Positions 163 to 21,313 of a stretch of DNA of 21,521 bases are shown in pieces. Below the pieces are notes generated by a model. That model did no database searches, had not been told where the DNA came from, and saw only the letters and a program-made list of their open reading frames with translations. The DNA comes from a virus. Made by a program: the position numbers and the translations under genes. The stretch is taken from IMG/VR virus record IMGVR_UViG_3300025514_000020, positions 1-21,521 of that record. The stretch is one strand, 5' to 3'. How positions within the stretch are numbered: the first letter of the stretch is position 1; every line of letters begins with the position of its first letter.

Positions 163-906
163 TTATTCGGTTTTGATGAAAGCGTCGACAAACCCCGCCG
201 CCTTTACCTTGGCGAGCATTGCGTCGGCATTTGCCTTGGAGCTGAACGCCCCGACCTGAACGCGGTACATCCTTTTCGGCTTGGTAGGTGCAGGCGCGGG
301 AGCGGGTGGCTTCGGTGTTTCGCCCGATGTGAGCAGCCGCTTGACCTCGGCGCGGAAGGTGTCCATCGACTTCCCGTGCCTTGGAAACCAGTGACCGGGG
401 TCTGCGTGGTTGGAAGCGATGCCGCGCCTATGCCCTTCATAATGCCCGATGATAATGCCGTCAGCCATTGGGTCAAGGGTATACTCCTTGCAGAGGAAAG
501 CGCACAGTTCAGCGGCTTCCTTATAGACCGCATTAAAATATGATTTGTCGGTTAGACCATCCTCGCAAATCTCAAATGAGATGTGCGTGTCATTGCCGGA
601 GCCTCTCAGTCCTCTGCCGCAGTGCCAGCCGCGATGGTTCCACGGCAGGGTCTGGTAGGTGGCAATCGAACCATCGGCAAGCCTCCCGATAAAGGCATGG
701 ACGCAGACCTGCCTGCCCTCCGGCCTGTCCTGATTCCAGTGGTTATTGTGCCGGTTTCTGCCCAGCAGCCCGTCATCCGGACCGACGTAGCGCCGCAGCC
801 ACGGGTTATTCGCCCCGGTGGAATGCACCATGATGCCTCTTGGCGTAATCGTTCTGCCCGCTTTGTAGCAGGCGTTGTTTGTGAGAATCAACGTACGAAG
901 GTTCAT
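163..906 (-). CDS. N-acetylmuramoyl-L-alanine amidase (endolysin) with C-terminal SPOR domain
   Basis: This is a 247-residue endolysin that would cut the amide bond between N-acetylmuramic acid and the stem peptide at the end of the lytic cycle. The N-terminal part (about 20-180) looks like Amidase_2: VHST with His28, ISFEICED (Glu112), IGHYEGH (His155) and SNHADPGHW (165-173), which are candidate zinc-binding and catalytic residues. A Pro/Ala linker (PKPPAPAPAP, from about 198) joins it to a SPOR-like domain in the last 35 residues (RVQVGAFSSKANADAMLAKV). In other proteins SPOR domains bind glycan strands lacking stem peptides, so here it probably serves as the wall-binding module. There is no signal peptide, so release depends on the holin. 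The ATG overlaps the holin stop as ATGA. The gene is followed by a terminator. Confidence 0.93.
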   Translation of the reverse strand: MNLRTLILTNNACYKAGRTITPRGIMVHSTGANNPWLRRYVGPDDGLLGRNRHNNHWNQDRPEGRQVCVHAFIGRLADGSIATYQTLPWNHRGWHCGRGLRGSGNDTHISFEICEDGLTDKSYFNAVYKEAAELCAFLCKEYTLDPMADGIIIGHYEGHRRGIASNHADPGHWFPRHGKSMDTFRAEVKRLLTSGETPKPPAPAPAPTKPKRMYRVQVGAFSSKANADAMLAKVKAAGFVDAFIKTE

Positions 907-1319
907 TTGTTTACCCCCTCGCCATCGCGGGAGCCCATCTGCGCCAACATCATCTTGAGCTTCTCCGGGATAGGCAGCCCCACACGCGCGGCGTTCTCCA
1001 GGATGGAAATGCCTTCATTGCTCAAATAAAAGAAAATTATCGCCGTCCGGATCGCGCCGCCGTCGCCAATCACCTGACTGTCGACGATATGGCCTACACC
1101 CACCAGCACAAAGACGAGCACCTTTTTAAAGATGCCCCTTGCGCCGATTTCGCTGGAGAGCTTTTTGTCGGCAATTGCGCACATGACGCCGGTCAGATAG
1201 TCAATAACCACAAAGGCGATCAGGGCGTAGAGAAACCCGTCCAGACCGCCGAGGAACCAGCCGAGAAATCCGCCGATAGCAGTCAAGGCCCACTGTACCC
1301 AGTTCCAGAATACTTTCAT
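903..1319 (-). CDS. Phage holin (holin_4 / toxin-secretion holin family)
   Basis: This 138-residue membrane protein should form the membrane lesion that lets the adjacent amidase reach the wall. Hydrophobic segments lie at about 11-30, 30-50, 66-79 and 91-101. The FVVIDYLTGVMCA stretch (36-48) and the conserved end NEGISILENAARVGLPIPEKL (split: NEGISILENAA at 101-111, then GLPIPEKL at 114-121) fit the holin_4 (Cph1/TcdE-like) family and its usual length. The ribosome site GGAGG lies 8 bases before the ATG. It overlaps the amidase start by four bases. A minus-strand terminator lies about 50 bases upstream, so the lysis pair probably has its own promoter or depends on read-through; no convincing promoter is visible. 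Confidence 0.92.
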   Translation of the reverse strand: MKVFWNWVQWALTAIGGFLGWFLGGLDGFLYALIAFVVIDYLTGVMCAIADKKLSSEIGARGIFKKVLVFVLVGVGHIVDSQVIGDGGAIRTAIIFFYLSNEGISILENAARVGLPIPEKLKMMLAQMGSRDGEGVNK

Positions 1320-1365: not shown

Positions 1366-1400
1366 TATAAAAAACGCTTGCCGTTTATACGGCAGAGCGT
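1366..1400 (-). terminator. Terminator hairpin upstream of the holin, minus strand
   Basis: The arms 1400-1389 and 1384-1374 form an 11-bp stem with one bulged base and a TTAT-type loop. On the minus strand it is followed by six T (1373-1368). It would stop leftward transcripts before the lysis genes and bounds the plus-strand cassette on its left. On the plus strand it lacks a good U-tract. The interval 1320-1474 otherwise holds the two divergent gene starts and no convincing promoter. Confidence 0.7.
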
Positions 1401-1474
1401 CTTTGTAGCTGCGGTTATTTAGCTTTACTCTCTCCCAAATTAAGGTTAAAATGAGTGGTAGGAGGGATATGACG

Positions 1475-2779
1475 ATGAAAAGGTCAGTATTATTTACAAT
1501 CGCGGCGCTTCTGCTTGTCGTCGCTCTATCGCTATTCGCGCCTACATACCAACGGGCAGCGGCCAGTCCCCCGATGGTTACCGTTCTATTGGACGGCTTG
1601 CCGGTACGCTTTGACGTGCCGCCCCAGATAATAAACGGACGAACCCTGGTCCCTTTTCGCTTGATTGCAGAGGCGATAAACATAAACGTAAACTGGGACG
1701 GTGATACCCGCACCATCTCTGCCAGCGACGGTAATACAAGGGTTATGCTTCAAATCGATAATAAAACCGCTCAGGTAAATGACCTGCCTACCCCGCTCGA
1801 TGCGCCCCCTGTTATCGTTGATGGCCGAACGCTTGTACCGTTGAGATTTTTCAGTGAAGAATTCGGCTGCCTGGTAAATTGGGATTCGGAAACCCGGATT
1901 ATAAGAATTGTCTCTCCGCCTCGTTCCATGAACGTCATTGGCTTTTATGCTTTAGGTGCGGGAGAAGCCAGTAGTTGGCTTGATCTTTTCGGCGTACCCT
2001 TCCCGGCTACCGGCAGCGGAAACACAGACACAGTGAGAGAGCTGGCCCTAGGCTGGTATACTATCGATGCGCAAGGCAACCTTTTAACCCGCACTTCTCG
2101 AAATGCTTGGCAGCGGCCTCCTGGCTGGGAAACAGTGCTGGCCACAGCCAAAGAGTTCGGGTTCAGGACAGAAATGGTCGTCCACGAGAACGACCGCAGC
2201 GGGCTGCTCACCACTTTCCTAAACGATGAACAGGCTATGTCTCGCGCCGTTGCCGCTATTGTACAGGAAGCATCCCTGTATCACGGTGTTAATCTGAACC
2301 TGGAAGAATTGGGACTGTACGCTGCAGGGGAAACGCGGCAGCAGATCCGTGACAGCTTTACCCGCTTTATTGCCATGCTAGCACCGCCACTGCGGGAGAC
2401 CGGAAGAACCCTGACGCTCACCATCCATCCGCCAAACAGTTCCTTCCGCGGCTATGATTATGCAGCACTCGGTCAATTAGCCGACCGCATTGTCGTTATG
2501 GCCCACGATTACGGACCAAAGCCTGAACCGCTAAACCGGGTGGTGCGGGCAGTGGAGATGGCGCTGGCCGTTGTCCCCCGGGAGAAGCTTGTTCTGGCCA
2601 TCTCGGCTCCGAGCGAAACAGCGGAAAGCATTATCCCCAAAATTGGTGTCGCTAAGCGCTATCGTCTGCAGGGTATCTCCCTCTGGCGGCTGGGGTTGGT
2701 GACAGAAGGCATGTGGACGGCAATGAGGCAAACGATTACAGGGAGGGAAAAAGATGAGCACCTCGCTAAAAAGGACTAA
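1475..2779 (+). CDS. Secreted stalk-domain (copper amine oxidase N-like) protein with degenerate GH18-like domain
   Basis: This 434-residue protein is encoded against the phage operon. ATG 1475 is chosen because AGGAGGG (1460-1466) lies 8 bases upstream; ATGs at 1451 and 1469 are poorly placed. A signal peptide (about 1-30, ending AAASP) precedes a Cu-amine-oxidase-N/stalk domain (about 35-147) with the paired pattern INGRTLVPFR / VDGRTLVPLR and VNWD. Residues about 153-420 resemble the GH18 barrel of spore-germination hydrolases: VVMAHDYG (340-347) and GISLWRLG (400-407). The catalytic DGxDxDxE motif reads HGVNLNLEE (270-278): Glu277 is kept, but the Asp positions are His or Asn. It may therefore bind glycan rather than cleave it. 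It is probably a lysogenic-conversion gene acting at the wall; a role in lysis is possible. It overlaps the next gene by 26 bases. Confidence 0.85.
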   Translation: MKRSVLFTIAALLLVVALSLFAPTYQRAAASPPMVTVLLDGLPVRFDVPPQIINGRTLVPFRLIAEAININVNWDGDTRTISASDGNTRVMLQIDNKTAQVNDLPTPLDAPPVIVDGRTLVPLRFFSEEFGCLVNWDSETRIIRIVSPPRSMNVIGFYALGAGEASSWLDLFGVPFPATGSGNTDTVRELALGWYTIDAQGNLLTRTSRNAWQRPPGWETVLATAKEFGFRTEMVVHENDRSGLLTTFLNDEQAMSRAVAAIVQEASLYHGVNLNLEELGLYAAGETRQQIRDSFTRFIAMLAPPLRETGRTLTLTIHPPNSSFRGYDYAALGQLADRIVVMAHDYGPKPEPLNRVVRAVEMALAVVPREKLVLAISAPSETAESIIPKIGVAKRYRLQGISLWRLGLVTEGMWTAMRQTITGREKDEHLAKKD

Positions 2780-3317
2780 AAGGCTTTGGTCGGTTATTGC
2801 TATTTTTGCAGTGTCGTTGTGTGTTGTCGTTTTATCTTTGTTTGTTTCACCTGGGCGCACACATCAAATACCTGAAACGACTGAGACGGAAAAGGACTAT
2901 ACAGGCGTATTTGTCAGTAAACTGCCGCTTGACGAGCAGTTAAAGGTAGCCCGCTGCGTCGAACTATCCGCTGTTGTCAACTGGGGCGAAGGAGGCCCTG
3001 GGCAGAGCATTGAAGTTGCCGAGGCGTTTCTGATGGGCTATCCTTATTCTGGCTATCTCGCCTACCTGGAAGAAAAGTACGGTAAATATAGGCCCGTTTC
3101 TCCAGGGGAAAGAGAGAGGAACGCAGTGGCTTTCCTGACACAGCATAAGGTTGATGAGCCACGGGCGCTTGGCCTATATCGGCGCGAAATATGGTTCTAT
3201 ACTGCTTCAGGGACTTTCCAAATCAACATTTTGCTCGATGAACAGGGGGCTGTCCGTGAATCGTCAGTGAGCTTCTTAGGCAAAGAAGACCCCTTCTTTC
3301 GGAGGGTCGACTGGTAA
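2754..3317 (+). CDS. Membrane-anchored or secreted protein of unknown function
   Basis: No family is recognised for this 187-residue protein. An N-terminal basic stretch (KRTKR) and a hydrophobic segment (about 11-33) indicate a signal anchor or uncleaved signal peptide, leaving a soluble part outside the membrane. The latter half looks like a mixed alpha/beta domain (YRREIWFYTASGTFQINILL, then DEQGAVRESSVSFLG). The ribosome site GGGAGGG lies 6 bases before the ATG, inside the end of the upstream gene, and the two genes overlap by 26 bases in different frames. They are thus translationally linked and may function together. A terminator follows immediately. There is no resemblance to phage structural genes, which supports a cargo (moron) role. 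Confidence 0.8.
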   Translation: MSTSLKRTKRLWSVIAIFAVSLCVVVLSLFVSPGRTHQIPETTETEKDYTGVFVSKLPLDEQLKVARCVELSAVVNWGEGGPGQSIEVAEAFLMGYPYSGYLAYLEEKYGKYRPVSPGERERNAVAFLTQHKVDEPRALGLYRREIWFYTASGTFQINILLDEQGAVRESSVSFLGKEDPFFRRVDW

Positions 3318-3324
3318 AGGACGA

Positions 3325-3371
3325 GGCACTAACCGAGGGTAAGCATACTTTGGTTAGTGCCCCTTCATTTT
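3325..3371 (+). terminator. Terminator of the plus-strand cassette
   Basis: A perfect 10-bp stem, GGCACTAACC (3325-3334) and GGTTAGTGCC (3352-3361), is followed by CCTTCATTTT. It lies 8 bases after the stop of the plus-strand gene and just beyond the stop of the convergent minus-strand gene, so it separates the two transcripts. The U-tract is imperfect. Confidence 0.7.
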
Positions 3372-3375
3372 ACGC

Positions 3376-4035
3376 TTACGCTAGCGATGTGCGAATGCTG
3401 CTCGTCGTGGGTCGGTTATTGGGCAGGCCAACATCTACAAAAGCATGCTCGTTCGGGTTCATATTCGCCCAAGTCCACTGAACCACGCCCCCTGGACTGC
3501 GAACAACTGTAGCCACCCTCCAAAAAGTGCACCAATCCTGCCCCATTACTGCGTCACCCAGAGTTGGCCCAACGCCAATTCGAGTGCCAGCTGGTAACGT
3601 CTCAATGAGACCGCCACTACGGGATCGAAGTGCCGCAGGACGATTCCAAATCGCATATTCCCGCAAGTTCATCCCGTTCCATGTAAAGTTTGTGCGCTGG
3701 AAATTCCAAATAGCAGAAAAGATGGCATGCTTATTAACATCAACTTGCGAGCTCCCAATAAACCCCCACTGCAGCTGACCCCCCGCGTTCCTTATAAGAA
3801 CTTGATGCTCTTCAGGGCTTCCAGTAACACGACGCCCTTCATCCTGCCACCTAAAATAATCGTTAGGCTGGATTGTTCCTATTTGAGTCGTGCAACCACC
3901 CGGACCAACCACACCGAACGGAACGCCTAAAAACACCGGAACAGAGATAGTTGACCGGTTCACGCAGAACATTCGTTGCGCCGTCACCCATGGCCGGACA
4001 GTAGAAGGGTTTCCAGCGGGACAAGTTGTCGACAC
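3376..4035 (-). CDS. Unrecognised protein with two SH3-like modules
   Basis: This is a 219-residue protein with a GTG start; AAGGAGG lies 7 bases upstream. There is no signal peptide or membrane segment. Two similar stretches suggest an internal duplication: LIRNAGGQLQWGFIGSS with NKHAIF (about 80-105), and VVRSPGGVVQWTWANM with NEHAFVD (about 178-203). The stretch before the second copy (LRSRSGGLIETLPAGTRIGVG) resembles bacterial SH3 (SH3b) domains, as in 'Rs...g...i.tLp.Gt.v.v', so it may bind wall or surface glycans. It is the last gene of the tail block before the opposite-strand cassette, and could be a tail-tip or receptor-binding accessory or a separate cargo gene. It is followed by the convergent terminator at 3325-3361. 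Confidence 0.75.
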   Translation of the reverse strand: MSTTCPAGNPSTVRPWVTAQRMFCVNRSTISVPVFLGVPFGVVGPGGCTTQIGTIQPNDYFRWQDEGRRVTGSPEEHQVLIRNAGGQLQWGFIGSSQVDVNKHAIFSAIWNFQRTNFTWNGMNLREYAIWNRPAALRSRSGGLIETLPAGTRIGVGPTLGDAVMGQDWCTFWRVATVVRSPGGVVQWTWANMNPNEHAFVDVGLPNNRPTTSSIRTSLA

Positions 4036-4117
4036 TCCAATTCCTCCTTAAATTTTTGCTACGCTACATCAAACGCCCTTTTCATATGCTGGTTGTTACG
4101 TGTTGCTACTACGTCAT
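4036..4117. other. Intergenic gap between tail gene and SH3-like gene
   Basis: This 82-base gap is the longest between consecutive minus-strand tail genes. A good ribosome site (GAGGAGG) at the end of the upstream gene leads to an ATG that meets a stop after two codons, as if a gene start were lost here. No hairpin or convincing promoter was seen. Confidence 0.35.
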
Positions 4118-6622
4118 TCAAACCACCTCCTCATGATATTTAAAAACAAGCGGATCCTGATGCCCGAGCGCCCACAACCCGACTCCTTTTAACCTCCATC
4201 TGTGCTTTGCGAGGTTGGCCAGCATGTCGAAATGCTCGGCATCGGAGTAATGGGCGATGGAGAACCCTCTTGCGTCTCCTAGGAAAAGTTGCGTAAGCCA
4301 CAGCCCCCGGTCGCGCAGCCGGAAGGCAACAGCCGTGTCGCTGTCAAAAGCCGCGAAAGAGTCGGTGTGCAGATAGTCAAAATCTGTGGAAATGCTTTCC
4401 TGCCTGGTTGCCGATTCTTCCCCGGGGCCTTCAAAGCGGAAATAGTCCCAGGGCTCAAGCCATGTCACGCCGGTACGCGGGATGCGTCCCAGTGTCTGGA
4501 TTTGACCGTCCGGCAGCGCCAAGTCAATGGCCTCCTGCGGCACATAAGTATAGGGGTCTCCCGCGTCCAGCAGGGCGCACTCACAGGCCGCGCCGCTGGT
4601 ACGCAATCCAAAGCCGCCCAGGGTCGGCAGGGACGCAGACAGGGCAAAGACCCGCGTGGTACCCACCCAGCAGTGCAATTCACTCCCGCGTGTTCTTAGC
4701 CGCAGCGTGTACCACGTGTTTAACCTCAGACTCTGTGCCACGTCCGGCTGCAGCCTTGTCCATGTCCCACCAGTCCTTTGCCAAAGTTCCGCCGTCTGCG
4801 TGCCGCGCCGCAGCAGGAACAGAAATAGATCATTTGCTCTCTGAGCTTTGAAAACCACGCCCATTGTGCCGCTTCCCGCCGTCATGCGCAGCCTGGCCCT
4901 GATGTTCAGATCGCCAAACCCGTAATAAGAGAGGTGCGCCTGAGCGTCTGCACTTGCCTGATCTGACTGGATTAACACCCGCCTTGCCGGATCTGTATCC
5001 ATGCTCCAGATACCCCCGCTGCGGTTGTAGAAAGCCAGAGTGTTGTCTCTAAAGTCGTCATACCAGACCCAGGCGTGCTCCGGGGCGCTTCGCAGCACCT
5101 CAGGGGTAAGGATAAACCGCTCCGGCAGCACGAGGGTATCGTTTACGTCTTTTAGTCTCCTTGGCGTGAGATTGAAAGTTGCCTCGCCGCCGGTCATGCT
5201 GAAGCTGAACTGCGAGCAGACCCTAAAGCCCCAGAACTGGGTACCGTACTGACTGCCCGCTCCGTGTACCTCCAAGGTGTGGCTTCCGGCGTCTAGATGA
5301 AACCGCCCGACTTTTAGCCAGTGGGTGCGGCGATGGAGGGGATACCAGTCGGGAAACGGCCCGATTTGTACCAGTGTCCCGTTTAGGCGCAGCTGCAAAA
5401 CCTGACGGTTCCACCAGGGGCAATTCACCCTTGCCGCCAGGTCATGTTCCCCCGACTGGGGAACGGAAAAAGAAAAAAGGGCTAAGCCATCTTCTTCCAA
5501 TACAGGTTGAGTCCCGGGAGGCGAACCCGGCGGGACGGGGAGAAGCTGGGGCGCCCTGGGGGAAATCCAGCCGCTGCCTATCGTCATAGCGCCGAAAATC
5601 TCATCAAAGCCGCTGCCTGTCCTGTCCGCAACCTGCCCGGCAAACTCATAGCGCGGCTCTTTTTCATAGGCGACCAGGTAGTTGCGCCTGACCCGGCCCG
5701 CCTGGCCGGAAACCTTGAAAATGGGGCTTGTAGTCCGCGTCGCGTCCATTCCTTCCTGGTAATCGTAGATGTGGAGGAGAAGGTATGGGCTTTGGCTGTC
5801 CTCGTCCAGAAACCCGGCAAAGGGGATGCGCGCCTGATGCTCATGAAAAGTAAAGTCTCCCTGCTGCCAGCCAAGCCAGGCGAGGAAGGTGCCGCCGCTG
5901 CCCCGGTAGCCCGTCGGCCTGCGGTCAATACGCCAGTTGAAGCCGAAGCCGGGGATGCCGAGAAAGATTTTCTCCTTTGGTATTCGCGTTACCGCGTAGT
6001 CATAGATTTCTTCCATCCACCACACCGGGCTGATGGGTCCGGGAGCGCTGCCCGCCCAGGCAAAGGCGTAGCTCATGATCACACAGGTATCAAAGTAAGG
6101 CTCCATCCGGCGGTAATCGCACCAGCGTTCCCAGGACGGAGCGCCGTCCCCGGTCATGGGAGGCAAGTCCCAATGCACATAGCGCTGGGACGGGCGGCTC
6201 TTGATGCTCTCGTAGATGCGCTTCGCCAGGGCCACCACGCCGTCCGGGTTGTCGTTCGGCCCTTTTTCCAGGTCGATATCCACCCCGGCGGCGAAGGGAT
6301 ACATATCTAAAATGCGGTGCAACTCACTGATAAATAAGTCCTGCGCCCCGTTTGTGTTCTCTACAATGGCCCGAAAGCGGGAAAGGATGCCGTCGTTTCT
6401 GACCGTCAGCAAATGGGTGATATGCGGCCAGCGTGCTACCCTTTCCAAATCTGCTGTGGGGATAGTGCCGGTAATCCGCCCGGTGTTGTCAGGTACCAGA
6501 AAATCAAACAGCCCCATGTGGGTTAACCTGTCGCCGTAATCCCGCCACTCCTGCCTTGCCCGGCTAGTCTTTAAAAATGACCAGGTCATGAAGCCTCGGC
6601 CTTCCTGCCGCATACCGCTCAT
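4118..6622 (-). CDS. Large tail protein with GH18-type hydrolase barrel and inserted carbohydrate-binding-like domains
   Basis: This is an 834-residue protein. ATG 6622 overlaps the upstream TGA as ATGA and has GGAGG 9 bases before it; the frame is open further upstream, but those starts lie inside the previous gene. The N-terminal part (about 30-345) resembles a GH18 barrel: GVDIDLEKG (113-121) carries the DxDxE pattern with Glu119 as predicted acid, followed by VIMSYAFAW (181-189) and KIFLGIPGFGF (218-228). A beta-rich region (about 365-475) looks like a CBM-type domain, and about 520-700 looks LamG/concanavalin-like (DDFRDNTLAFYN, NTWYTLRLRTRG). The end, GVGLWALGHQDP (813-824), resembles the last strand of GH18, so the barrel may be interrupted by the insert. 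It probably degrades wall or surface polysaccharide during adsorption. GH18 enzymes cleave beta-1,4-GlcNAc links; the substrate here is inferred. Confidence 0.85.
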   Translation of the reverse strand: MSGMRQEGRGFMTWSFLKTSRARQEWRDYGDRLTHMGLFDFLVPDNTGRITGTIPTADLERVARWPHITHLLTVRNDGILSRFRAIVENTNGAQDLFISELHRILDMYPFAAGVDIDLEKGPNDNPDGVVALAKRIYESIKSRPSQRYVHWDLPPMTGDGAPSWERWCDYRRMEPYFDTCVIMSYAFAWAGSAPGPISPVWWMEEIYDYAVTRIPKEKIFLGIPGFGFNWRIDRRPTGYRGSGGTFLAWLGWQQGDFTFHEHQARIPFAGFLDEDSQSPYLLLHIYDYQEGMDATRTTSPIFKVSGQAGRVRRNYLVAYEKEPRYEFAGQVADRTGSGFDEIFGAMTIGSGWISPRAPQLLPVPPGSPPGTQPVLEEDGLALFSFSVPQSGEHDLAARVNCPWWNRQVLQLRLNGTLVQIGPFPDWYPLHRRTHWLKVGRFHLDAGSHTLEVHGAGSQYGTQFWGFRVCSQFSFSMTGGEATFNLTPRRLKDVNDTLVLPERFILTPEVLRSAPEHAWVWYDDFRDNTLAFYNRSGGIWSMDTDPARRVLIQSDQASADAQAHLSYYGFGDLNIRARLRMTAGSGTMGVVFKAQRANDLFLFLLRRGTQTAELWQRTGGTWTRLQPDVAQSLRLNTWYTLRLRTRGSELHCWVGTTRVFALSASLPTLGGFGLRTSGAACECALLDAGDPYTYVPQEAIDLALPDGQIQTLGRIPRTGVTWLEPWDYFRFEGPGEESATRQESISTDFDYLHTDSFAAFDSDTAVAFRLRDRGLWLTQLFLGDARGFSIAHYSDAEHFDMLANLAKHRWRLKGVGLWALGHQDPLVFKYHEEVV

Positions 6623-7251
6623 ATCCGTTTCCCTCCTTCCGAGAGCTGCCATTCCTGCAGCTCGACGAGCACCCTGGCCGAAGGCTCCGGCCGCAAAGCA
6701 GCCTGTCCCTCGTCCAGCCCCAGGAGAGCAACGGGGAAGCGGGGATTCCCCCAAGCGGCATAGAGGAACCGGCCTTTAAACTGAACGGGGCTGCCGTTTT
6801 GCAGTACTTGCCGCTCAGTGCCGATAAGCTCTAACTCCTGGTTGTTCGCCAAGACTTGCGGAAAATAAAAAAGCCTTGTCAGCCGGTCTTGGCCCAAGGT
6901 GATGCCTTTGCTTAAGTTTTCCTTTGCCCTTAGGCGAAAGTCCAGGGCCGTGGGCACAATTACCGCCCCCGGCTCCACCGCCCAGTAGGAGCCACGGTTG
7001 GGAACAATCAAGGTTTTAGCGCCCCGCACCACGGCGTTGTAGTGTTTTGGCTGAGCCGGGCTGGCGTTTTCCCGCAGTTTTTGCAGCATCTCCTTGCTGT
7101 TTTGGGAGTAGCCGGTTAAATGCTTTCCTTCCTGGAGCATTACGTCCGTAAAGGAAAAAGAGCCGGCGGCATCAGACATTACCGCTTGGGCCCGGATACT
7201 TGCCACCCGCTTTCCTTCTTCCGGCGCAAAAAGAAACAAGTAACGTTTCAT
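6619..7251 (-). CDS. Tail-associated protein of unknown function, 210 aa
   Basis: No known family is recognised. ATG 7251 is preferred over an in-frame GTG at 7260, because AGGTGAGG just before the ATG can serve as ribosome site. Residues 27-46 (DAAGSFSFTDVMLQEGKHLT) closely match residues 28-47 of the 61-residue protein encoded immediately upstream, so the two are partly paralogous. The middle is beta-rich (LIVPNRGSYWAVEPGAVIVP). There is no signal peptide or membrane segment. It lies between Tal and the GH18 tail protein with overlapping junctions, so it is probably a tail-tip or fibre-attachment component. Confidence 0.75.
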   Translation of the reverse strand: MKRYLFLFAPEEGKRVASIRAQAVMSDAAGSFSFTDVMLQEGKHLTGYSQNSKEMLQKLRENASPAQPKHYNAVVRGAKTLIVPNRGSYWAVEPGAVIVPTALDFRLRAKENLSKGITLGQDRLTRLFYFPQVLANNQELELIGTERQVLQNGSPVQFKGRFLYAAWGNPRFPVALLGLDEGQAALRPEPSARVLVELQEWQLSEGGKRI

Positions 7252-7260
7252 TTTCCTCAC

Positions 7261-7446
7261 CTACTCAAAGGAGAAACGAAGCTCCGCAGGGTGGCCGTTC
7301 CACAGTGTAGCCAGCCTGCCGCCCTGCAGCACGATGTCGGCGACGTTTACCTGGCCGCTGGCATCCTCCAGGCAAAGGCGCACTTCGATTTTCTCAACCT
7401 TTTTGGTTGGGGACACAGACTTTAGATAAGACTCAAAAAACGCCAT
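7261..7446 (-). CDS. Small tail-region protein, 61 aa
   Basis: This short gene has a strong ribosome site (AAGGAG, 8 bases before the ATG) and begins 12 bases after the Tal stop. Residues 28-47 (DASGQVNVADIVLQGGRLAT) match a stretch of the next protein, so it looks like a single copy of a small beta module. Its stop lies directly before the next gene. It may be a tail-tip adaptor; function unknown. Confidence 0.72.
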   Translation of the reverse strand: MAFFESYLKSVSPTKKVEKIEVRLCLEDASGQVNVADIVLQGGRLATLWNGHPAELRFSFE

Positions 7447-7458
7447 AGCGTTTGCTCC

Positions 7459-8922
7459 TTACCCCAGGACCAGGGAAACAAACTGTGTTTCGCTGCTCCC
7501 GTCCTCGTAATGGATGACTATTTCAACCCCGACCTTGCCGTTTGGCCCCAGCTGAATATTCTCCAGGGCCGCCCGCAAGCTTAACACATAGCTGTCCCGG
7601 TGGGCGGGATGCACAGTTTGCGTCAGTGTTTTGGATACGCCCAGCGCGCCCACAGCCTTAAAAGACGCACCGCCCGAATAGCCTTGCGTGCCGTCCACCG
7701 TCCAGCCGTCGTTTATCCAGTAAGCGGTACCGCTCTCCGCCCTGGAATTTAAGAGCAGGTTAAAGACAGAGAGCTGCTCGATATCTTTTTTGTCCACCAT
7801 ATCCGCCGTATCAAACAAAGCCACGGAATGCTTAACCTGGCTGAGCGTCTCCGAGAGGTCTTTGCGGACAGCCGCCAGCTCGATTTCACTCCGCCAAGGC
7901 TCCTCCACAAAATAGCGCATGCGCATGACCCTTGTCTTGACATAGATGCCGGAATCCTCATCGTAAACCGTCACCACGTCCCCCAGGCTGACCTTTTCCC
8001 CCTCATAGCCTGCCAGGGCGGAGAGGTCGACGATGCCGCACTCATAGCTTACCTGCGCCTGGCTTAAGGCTAAAAGATACGCCTGGGCATATTCTTTCAG
8101 CTGGTTGGGGTCGGTGAATGCCTCCGCGGCCAAAACAGCGGAGGGAGGGGGATCGTAGCCGCTCTCCACCTCCAGATAGGGGATGCCGTTATTCACCGTG
8201 GCGATAGTCAAGCCGCCCCTGCCCCGAGGATAGACCCTTGTCACCTGCTCGATGGCGTTTCTTTCCTCTTGCGCCCGGCGCAGGTTTTTCCCCCGCAAAA
8301 AGAAAACGTTGCGTTCTTCTCCCGCGGCGTCCCGGAGAGACACCGTCTTTTGTTTCGTCTGAAAATTCAGCTCCACTTGAAAGATGCGCTCCATCTCCCG
8401 CAGCGCTTCCAGGCGGTTGCAGCCGCCTCGGAAAACGAAGGGCCGAATGGAGGATGCAGGAGAGTCTCCTGCCTGCCAGCCCGTACCTGATAAGAGAAGG
8501 CTGAGCACCTCCGCCGCTACGACATTTTCCCATTCCCGCGCGGGCGCGTCCGGAGCTTTCAGCAAATCGTACCACAGCGCCCAAGCTTCAACCTGCCAGT
8601 ACCTGGCCCCCGCATCATCCTCCTCGTTGGCAAGGACCATCACCCGGTAAACGCTCCCCGCCAGGTCAAGCGTCGTCCCCGTTTCCAAAGCTTCCGCGCC
8701 GGGCTTTACAGGCAGCTTGAACTCCAGCCGGTCTTCGTTGCCCAGGGTCTGGTGCACGATGATCTCATAGGCGTCGTGCAGGAGGGCGACCGGCTCCATC
8801 TGCTTGTTGACGACGACAGGCACGGCGAAGCCCAGCCGGTCATACCAGGAGACCGGATGCCAGGGGAGAAGGATTCGATTGTAAAGATGCCCTGTGTTAT
8901 ACCGTCTGCCGGTGTTATACAC
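7459..8922 (-). CDS. Tail-associated lysin/minor structural protein (Tal-like)
   Basis: This 487-residue protein has a GTG start, with AAGGAGG 8 bases upstream lying across the previous gene's stop. It begins with a YNTGRRYNTGHLYN repeat. About 30-370 has the character of the prophage tail endopeptidase / minor structural family (PF06605/TIGR01665 type): VVNKQMEPVALLHDAYEIIV, later GGCNRLEALREMERIFQVEL, and the LGDVVTVYDEDSGIYVKTRVM segment seen in siphoviral tail hubs. These proteins form the hub below Dit at the tail tip. The C-terminal part (from about 395) looks like a beta-sandwich, carbohydrate-binding type (WINDGWTVDGTQGYSGGASFK). No clear peptidase catalytic motif is visible, so lytic activity is not claimed. 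Confidence 0.85.
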   Translation of the reverse strand: MYNTGRRYNTGHLYNRILLPWHPVSWYDRLGFAVPVVVNKQMEPVALLHDAYEIIVHQTLGNEDRLEFKLPVKPGAEALETGTTLDLAGSVYRVMVLANEEDDAGARYWQVEAWALWYDLLKAPDAPAREWENVVAAEVLSLLLSGTGWQAGDSPASSIRPFVFRGGCNRLEALREMERIFQVELNFQTKQKTVSLRDAAGEERNVFFLRGKNLRRAQEERNAIEQVTRVYPRGRGGLTIATVNNGIPYLEVESGYDPPPSAVLAAEAFTDPNQLKEYAQAYLLALSQAQVSYECGIVDLSALAGYEGEKVSLGDVVTVYDEDSGIYVKTRVMRMRYFVEEPWRSEIELAAVRKDLSETLSQVKHSVALFDTADMVDKKDIEQLSVFNLLLNSRAESGTAYWINDGWTVDGTQGYSGGASFKAVGALGVSKTLTQTVHPAHRDSYVLSLRAALENIQLGPNGKVGVEIVIHYEDGSSETQFVSLVLG

Positions 8923-20670: not shown

Positions 20671-20856
20671 TTATCCGATGTCCGCTTCGCCGGTCAGGAT
20701 AAAGCGGCTGTATTCGGCTTTGTGCTCCTCCAGGTACAACACAAGTTCGTAGAAGCCGTGCACAAAGGCCTCGTGCTGGACGCGGTTTACGTCAAACATA
20801 TTGGTGACACCGCTTGCCCGGACGGCGAGGATTTGCTCTTTTATCTTTTCATTCAT
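20671..20856 (-). CDS. DUF5049 family protein
   Basis: This 61-residue protein starts at ATG 20856, with GGAGG 9 bases upstream; a longer open frame upstream overlaps the previous gene and lacks a site. The sequence NEKIKEQILAVRASGVTNMF, then DVNRVQHEAFVHGFYELVLY and LEEHKAEYSRFILTG, is recognised as the DUF5049 type, a small family found next to terminase genes in Firmicutes prophages. Function unknown. It overlaps the cyclotransferase gene by 8 bases. Confidence 0.85.
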   Translation of the reverse strand: MNEKIKEQILAVRASGVTNMFDVNRVQHEAFVHGFYELVLYLEEHKAEYSRFILTGEADIG

Positions 20857-21313
20857 GGGCGGTTTCCTCCGTTTTTGCCGAATCGATGGTTGCCTGGCGC
20901 AGGATCTCCACATCGAAGCCCGCGGCCCTGTAGCCTTCCAAAATGGCGGCGTAATAGTAGCAGCTTGGCTGGCCGAGCGGCCTGCCCTCGTTCATGATAT
21001 ACACCATCGCCCTGACGGTCTTGCCGTTTAGTTGCACTTCTAGCGTTTCCTTGCGGTAGAAATATGGCCAGCCCTCGTAGCGGTCAAGCGCCGCCTCGTC
21101 AGCGGGCGATATCTCCCAGACCAGCACCGGGACGCTGCCGCCCTGACAAGGCTCCACCGTCGCCACCGCGCCTTCGCGCGCGCCCCGGAACAGAAGCCGC
21201 CAGTCCTTCATTACGCTTGCCCCCAGCACCTTCGCCGTGGGGCATCTGTCCGCCATCTGTTCCCGGTTTAAGTTGGAACCGTAGGCGATGTATAGCTTGT
21301 TGTGCTTATCCAT
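20849..21313 (-). CDS. Gamma-glutamylcyclotransferase-like (AIG2 fold) protein
   Basis: This 154-residue protein has the cyclotransferase signature: YGSNLN (11-16), the substrate-binding loop, and an acidic residue in DRYEGWPYFYRKE (Glu80) at the expected catalytic position. Family enzymes release 5-oxoproline from gamma-glutamyl peptides or gamma-glutamylamines. The substrate in a phage context is unknown; modified amino groups or peptides are possible. GGAGG lies 9 bases before the ATG. It heads the visible operon and is followed by DUF5049 and terminase, an arrangement seen in other Firmicutes prophages. Confidence 0.88.
   Translation of the reverse strand: MDKHNKLYIAYGSNLNREQMADRCPTAKVLGASVMKDWRLLFRGAREGAVATVEPCQGGSVPVLVWEISPADEAALDRYEGWPYFYRKETLEVQLNGKTVRAMVYIMNEGRPLGQPSCYYYAAILEGYRAAGFDVEILRQATIDSAKTEETAHE

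Follow-up and report, generated by a model that had tools for sequence, protein, structure and literature searches.

A putative moron carrying a host-derived GH18-like gene between the tail and lysis genes of a temperate Firmicutes siphophage

Phages T5 and BF23 carry a receptor-binding tail-end gene with the exclusion lipoprotein gene llp adjacent to it, and unrelated versions of these genes are exchanged (PMC4728585). The prophage-encoded surface lipoprotein Ltp of Streptococcus thermophilus phage TP-J34 is considered a moron (PMC3952083). In Salmonella prophages, accessory loci with their own promoter lie antisense to the lytic genes, as in the case of STMMW_20121 of ST64B (PMC7067206), and sporulation-related wall hydrolases also occur on phages (PMC10294663). 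Here, we describe a two-gene cassette in a 21,521-nt virus record (IMGVR_UViG_3300025514_000020, positions 1 to 21,521; this whole stretch is referred to as the window) and compare it with these systems.

The cassette consists of ORF1 and ORF2 (Table 1), which lie on the plus strand within the minus-strand late operon, between the tail genes and the holin and amidase genes, and overlap by 26 nt with both frames open. The minus-strand tail genes begin at 3376 and continue upward as a siphophage late operon. On sequence grounds, ORF1 and ORF2 are both genuine genes, because homologues are present at the same place in other phages and because ORF1 is under purifying selection (dN/dS of 0.12-0.23, calculated against more diverged copies). 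A first-pass annotation had described two overlapping plus-strand genes inside the minus-strand late operon at this junction, and both the coordinates and the phage homologues agree with it. Mis-assembly, which it had raised as a possible objection, was discarded, since the same arrangement is found in several independent contigs and in one integrated prophage. Positions 20849-21313, where the phage operon has its packaging end, encode a gamma-glutamyl cyclotransferase-like (GGACT) protein.

Table 1. Coordinates of the cassette and its surroundings in the window.
Feature	Position	Strand	Description
Holin and amidase	163-1319	-	Lysis genes flanking the cassette
Accessory segment	1321-4149		Insertion relative to L020-L027; alignments stop at 1320/1321 and resume at 4142/4149
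Minus-strand terminator	1366-1400	-	Upstream of holin, outside the plus-strand transcript; common to L039 only
Cassette promoter TTTACT-N17-TAAAAT	1424-1452	+	Putative; sole TTTAY-N17-TAMAAT match in the window
ORF1	1475-2779	+	434 aa, ATG at 1475; signal peptide, stalk domain (PF07833), YdhD/SleL-like GH18 domain
GH18 motif HGVNLNLEE	2282-2308	+	Asp positions are His270/Asn273/Asn275; catalytic Glu277 retained
ORF2	2754-3317	+	187 aa, ATG at 2754; N-terminal membrane anchor, phage-only family
Hairpin between convergent genes	3325-3371		Likely bidirectional terminator; fold of -23 to -25 kcal/mol on either strand
Convergent tail-strand gene	3376-4035	-	219 aa, beta-rich, possibly SH3b-like; travels with ORF2
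Minor tail protein with GH18 domain	4118-6754	-	DIDLE intact

Comparison with 25 related loci, obtained from a scan with a tail protein and annotated with a simple open-frame caller, marks the segment as accessory. The segment is absent from the closest relatives (L020-L027), whose flanks share about 82-97% DNA identity with the window, and in them the tail GH18 gene runs directly into holin; since the alignments to them break off and resume at the two edges of the segment, ORF1, ORF2 and the gene at 3376-4035 form one insertion. This empty site and the dedicated promoter bear out the layout of a moron that had been read from the sequence at first. An occupied slot or a displaced module was found in seven distinct phages, which are few and related to each other (the window, L002/L003, L008, L004/L019, L005, L039 and a prophage in genome G085), and ORF1 is present in four of the seven (the window, L003, L008 and G085). 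The cargo of the slot, usually convergent with a variable tail-strand gene, differs among them. L039 aligns with the window at 98-1538 (90% identity) and 4032-7500 (88%), which covers both segment edges, the promoter and the signal peptide; its opposite-strand gene then diverges into another protein, of 256 aa with a LysM-type match, and the product of its tail-strand gene (261 aa) is different as well. In L018, the ORF2 domain is fused, as a lipoprotein, to the LysM-type body of L039. In the G085 prophage, ORF1 is accompanied by a lipoprotein of 257 aa that does not match ORF2; the tail-strand gene has just 25% identity to that at 3376-4035. In L005, a pair of the ORF2/3376 type is still together but stands at a remove of a few genes, flanked by other tail genes, and the tail-holin junction is empty. 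As judged from these arrangements, the slot swaps its cargo, with ORF1, ORF2, the LysM-type domain and another lipoprotein appearing in varied combinations, all of them predicted to be exported. Identity between the window and L003 is about 99.5% over ORF1 and the first half of ORF2 (about 1490-2990) and falls to 40-67% on both sides; this tract of about 1.5 kb reads as a recent transfer. The fusion gene of L018 (518-1630) adjoins, by inspection, a toxin-antitoxin-like pair.

Serine recombinase genes adjoin the lysis genes of relatives, which argues for a temperate lifestyle, and the virus is a temperate siphophage of Firmicutes of the class that also contains a Dethiobacter genome (the host class hereafter). 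The integrated prophage sits in a genome, G085, that also holds the host's own chromosomal ORF1 copy; the identities of the host genes in its flanks were judged by inspection.

The description of ORF1 as an exported protein with stalk and GH18-like domains is supported by the predicted signal peptide, by the stalk domain (Cu_amine_oxidN1, E=1.4e-37 in Pfam) and by a relationship to YdhD/SleL-type enzymes. The GH18-like domain lies slightly under the Pfam cut-off for PF00704 (E=6.9e-6; 26.4 bits against a cut-off of 29.6, with two homologues at 29.0 and 28.5). Comparison with structures of YaaH/SleL-type enzymes, proposed earlier as a check and carried out here as a PDB profile search, returned 3cz8, YdhD, at E=7e-18. 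GH18 enzymes have the catalytic motif DxxDxDxE. The Asp two residues ahead of the catalytic Glu is absent in the ORF1 of the window (Asn275) and is Asp or Asn in the family, with several switches on the tree; the fourth motif position is always Asn, and Glu277 is invariant among the members that cover the motif. The aligned YdhD and SleL sequences retain just the final DxE. Additionally, His344 replaces the MxYD Tyr in the phage clade. Since the closest chromosomal copies (L084, L011, L071 and L082) have, like those of the phages, this Tyr-to-His replacement and an Asn as sixth motif residue, the active-site change is older than the capture, and the altered residues of ORF1 (H270, N273, N275) are inherited from host members. 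Thus, the replacement of Asp by His/Asn seen by the first-pass annotation stands at the level of the residues, but not as a phage adaptation to mere glycan binding, as chromosomal host copies have the same substitutions and the Glu is invariant. A phage-specific loss of the catalytic Asp was discarded because chromosomal members carry Asn there too. Inactivity of ORF1 is neither established, given the invariant Glu277, nor to be assumed, because the GH85 enzyme Endo-A functions with N171 and E173, that is, with Asn and Glu (PMC2646837).

The family defined by the GH18 part of ORF1 is present in 45 of the 299 sampled genomes of the phylum (about 15%) and in 15 of the 98 of the host class, counts that take in remnants and one copy in a prophage. 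Because its neighbours vary between genomes, the gene stands mostly by itself on the chromosome. A conserved host operon was likewise rejected, with the exception of two genomes where the gene 9-10 nt downstream of the chromosomal homologue codes for a lipoprotein of LysM type related to the body in L039. In the trees, the phage copies nest within chromosomal copies of the host class. The copy of the G085 prophage groups with the chromosomal copy of the same genome (94/91 in the smaller tree and 99/93 in the larger one), and constraining all phage copies plus L009 to one group is disfavoured (p-AU 0.016); on this basis, at least two captures of ORF1 from the host are favoured, though not proven. 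L009 is an uncertain case, where a truncated ORF2-like start stands behind the ORF1 copy, near mobile-element-like genes; about 400 nt past this start (within L009:8001-9700) lies, by eye, the 3' end of a tRNA gene, a possible remnant or attachment site.

The promoter motif TTTAY-N17-TAMAAT occurs once each in the window, L003, L008, L009, L039, L113 (the prophage) and L116 (the G085 chromosomal copy), always just upstream of an ORF1-type gene or signal peptide. It is absent from L004, L005 and L018, which by eye have other promoter-like sequences. Since the motif always lies directly 5' of the ORF1-type gene or signal peptide, including the chromosomal copy, the gene was captured with its own promoter; by sequence, ORF1 thus derives from the host chromosome, as does the promoter in front of it. 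This promoter looks sigma-A-like, and would be used by sigma-A and active in the lysogen. No consistent sporulation-type motif was seen by eye 5' of the chromosomal ORF1 members. The cassette has its own predicted terminator hairpin besides its promoter motif, and strong hairpins stand at the place equivalent to 3325-3371 in L003, L004, L039 and L113. Both stem-loops of the originally proposed terminator on each side exist, but the one at 1366-1400 is not part of the cassette: its T-run is on the minus strand, which makes it a minus-strand terminator upstream of the cassette. It is oriented with late transcription and stands directly before holin; expression of holin and amidase would require a separate promoter or antitermination.

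ORF2 shows by hydropathy a single N-terminal hydrophobic segment (signal anchor), so that its earlier description as an unknown membrane protein is retained in the sense of a membrane-anchored protein, whereas a multi-span protein was discarded. Lipoprotein signals are present in the ORF2 relatives of L008 and L018 and in the L113 lipoprotein, and absent from ORF1 and ORF2 of the window. All seven ORF2 homologues are from phages. ORF2 had zero matches in the 98 host-class genomes (a search with no positive control in that set) and no family match in Pfam and further family searches; its low-confidence model (pLDDT 65) gave no significant match in a fold search. For the convergent gene at 3376-4035 (likewise a low-confidence model, pLDDT 69), the best matches were SH3b wall-binding domains, at non-significant scores. 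The DIDLE motif of the tail GH18 domain is intact in the window and several relatives; in the window, the last barrel strand of this domain, RLKGVGLWALG, stands at the far C end, past a long insert.

From its anatomy and host origin, the cassette is very probably a moron, that is, a lysogenic-conversion cassette, occupying a slot of variable content where the tail and lysis genes meet. We propose that its promoter would be active in the lysogen, that ORF1 would be exported and, via its stalk and GH18-like domains, act or sit on wall glycan, and that ORF2 would be its membrane-anchored partner. Action of ORF1 at the wall in the lysogen is rather probable. The likeliest benefit would be to alter or mask wall structures that related phages, whose tail protein has its own GH18 domain, need, so that superinfection would be excluded. 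We favour exclusion because the slot is next to tail-end genes, encodes products that are exported or lipoproteins and gets refilled with unrelated ones, as in the oad-llp and hrs-llp pairs of T5/BF23, and because the virion itself bears a GH18 tail domain. Taken by itself, this use is tentative; the full series of steps leading to wall action in the lysogen, with exclusion as its favoured purpose, could equally hold or fail. PADLOC returned no match of the cassette to a known exclusion or defence protein. In a stronger form, which is rather unlikely, the convergent pair would be a matched module swapped as a unit, consisting of a wall-binding tail-end protein (3376-4035) and host-captured exported wall proteins that block that virion type.

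The spore-wall roles of the relatives of ORF1 fit a host-fitness role as well, in which the extra copy would change wall remodelling, spore cortex or germination of the lysogen and let the prophage persist through dormancy, with no effect on other phages. The nearest solved relatives of ORF1, YdhD and SleL/YaaH, are spore wall enzymes, phages are known to carry sporulation-related wall hydrolases (PMC10294663), and SpoIVA is present in 37 of the 38 genomes with close homologues against 213 of the 261 others (p=0.0065, with kinship ignored). However, the spore-former baseline is already high, the captured promoter is sigma-A-like with no sporulation-type promoter recognised, and ORF2 and the other cargo have no spore relatives. 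We regard this role as rather unlikely. Less probable still is an active glycosidase that would cut wall glycan by Asn275 and Glu277 in a GH85-like manner and serve wall turnover or lysis timing. The restriction of position 275 to Asp or Asn and the invariance of Glu277 (members covering the motif), the Endo-A precedent (PMC2646837) and the proximity of holin and amidase are consistent with it, but His344 takes the place of the MxYD Tyr in the phage clade, and a promoter of its own opposed to the lysis genes is a poor fit to late expression. The cassette could also be passenger DNA that lacks a selected function, recombination having brought a host gene into a site that tolerates it, as many related phages do without it and truncated copies exist in L009 (ORF2-like start) and L016 (ORF1). 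Purifying selection on ORF1 weakens this explanation, which is highly improbable in view also of the retained promoter, the repeated filling of the slot by exported proteins and the recent transfer between the window and L003.

The sequence of the locus shows one route by which a moron can arise: a host wall gene is acquired with its own promoter and set in opposition to the late operon, probably on more than one occasion, after which other exported wall proteins take its place. If superinfection is excluded, as we prefer, this would represent a wall-level exclusion system for Gram-positive hosts and give a testable function to a widespread uncharacterised host gene family. If the matched-module reading were true, the pair would be a Gram-positive counterpart of oad/hrs-llp, made from a domesticated host GH18-like protein.

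Among the known systems, the Salmonella prophage loci are likewise accessory, run antisense to the lytic region and have a promoter of their own (PMC7067206), but their expression was measured, whereas that of the window cassette is predicted. Ltp is a prophage-encoded surface lipoprotein of a Gram-positive host and, as proposed here for the cassette, is considered a moron (PMC3952083); however, it sits in the lysogeny module of TP-J34, and in family searches neither ORF1 and ORF2 nor the other cargo proteins resembled it. YdhD and SleL/YaaH share with ORF1 a GH18-like domain that aligns over the catalytic region and the C-terminal strand, but ORF1 has a stalk domain instead of LysM and, in the phage clade, Asn at the catalytic Asp position. 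In the oad-llp and hrs-llp pairs of T5/BF23, as in the window, an exported or lipoprotein gene stands beside a tail-end gene and unrelated versions occupy one place (PMC4728585). The llp products of T5 and BF23 act in the infected Gram-negative cell and bind an outer-membrane receptor; the window cassette, for which exclusion is proposed, is instead host-derived or orphan, lies opposite to the late operon and has its own promoter.
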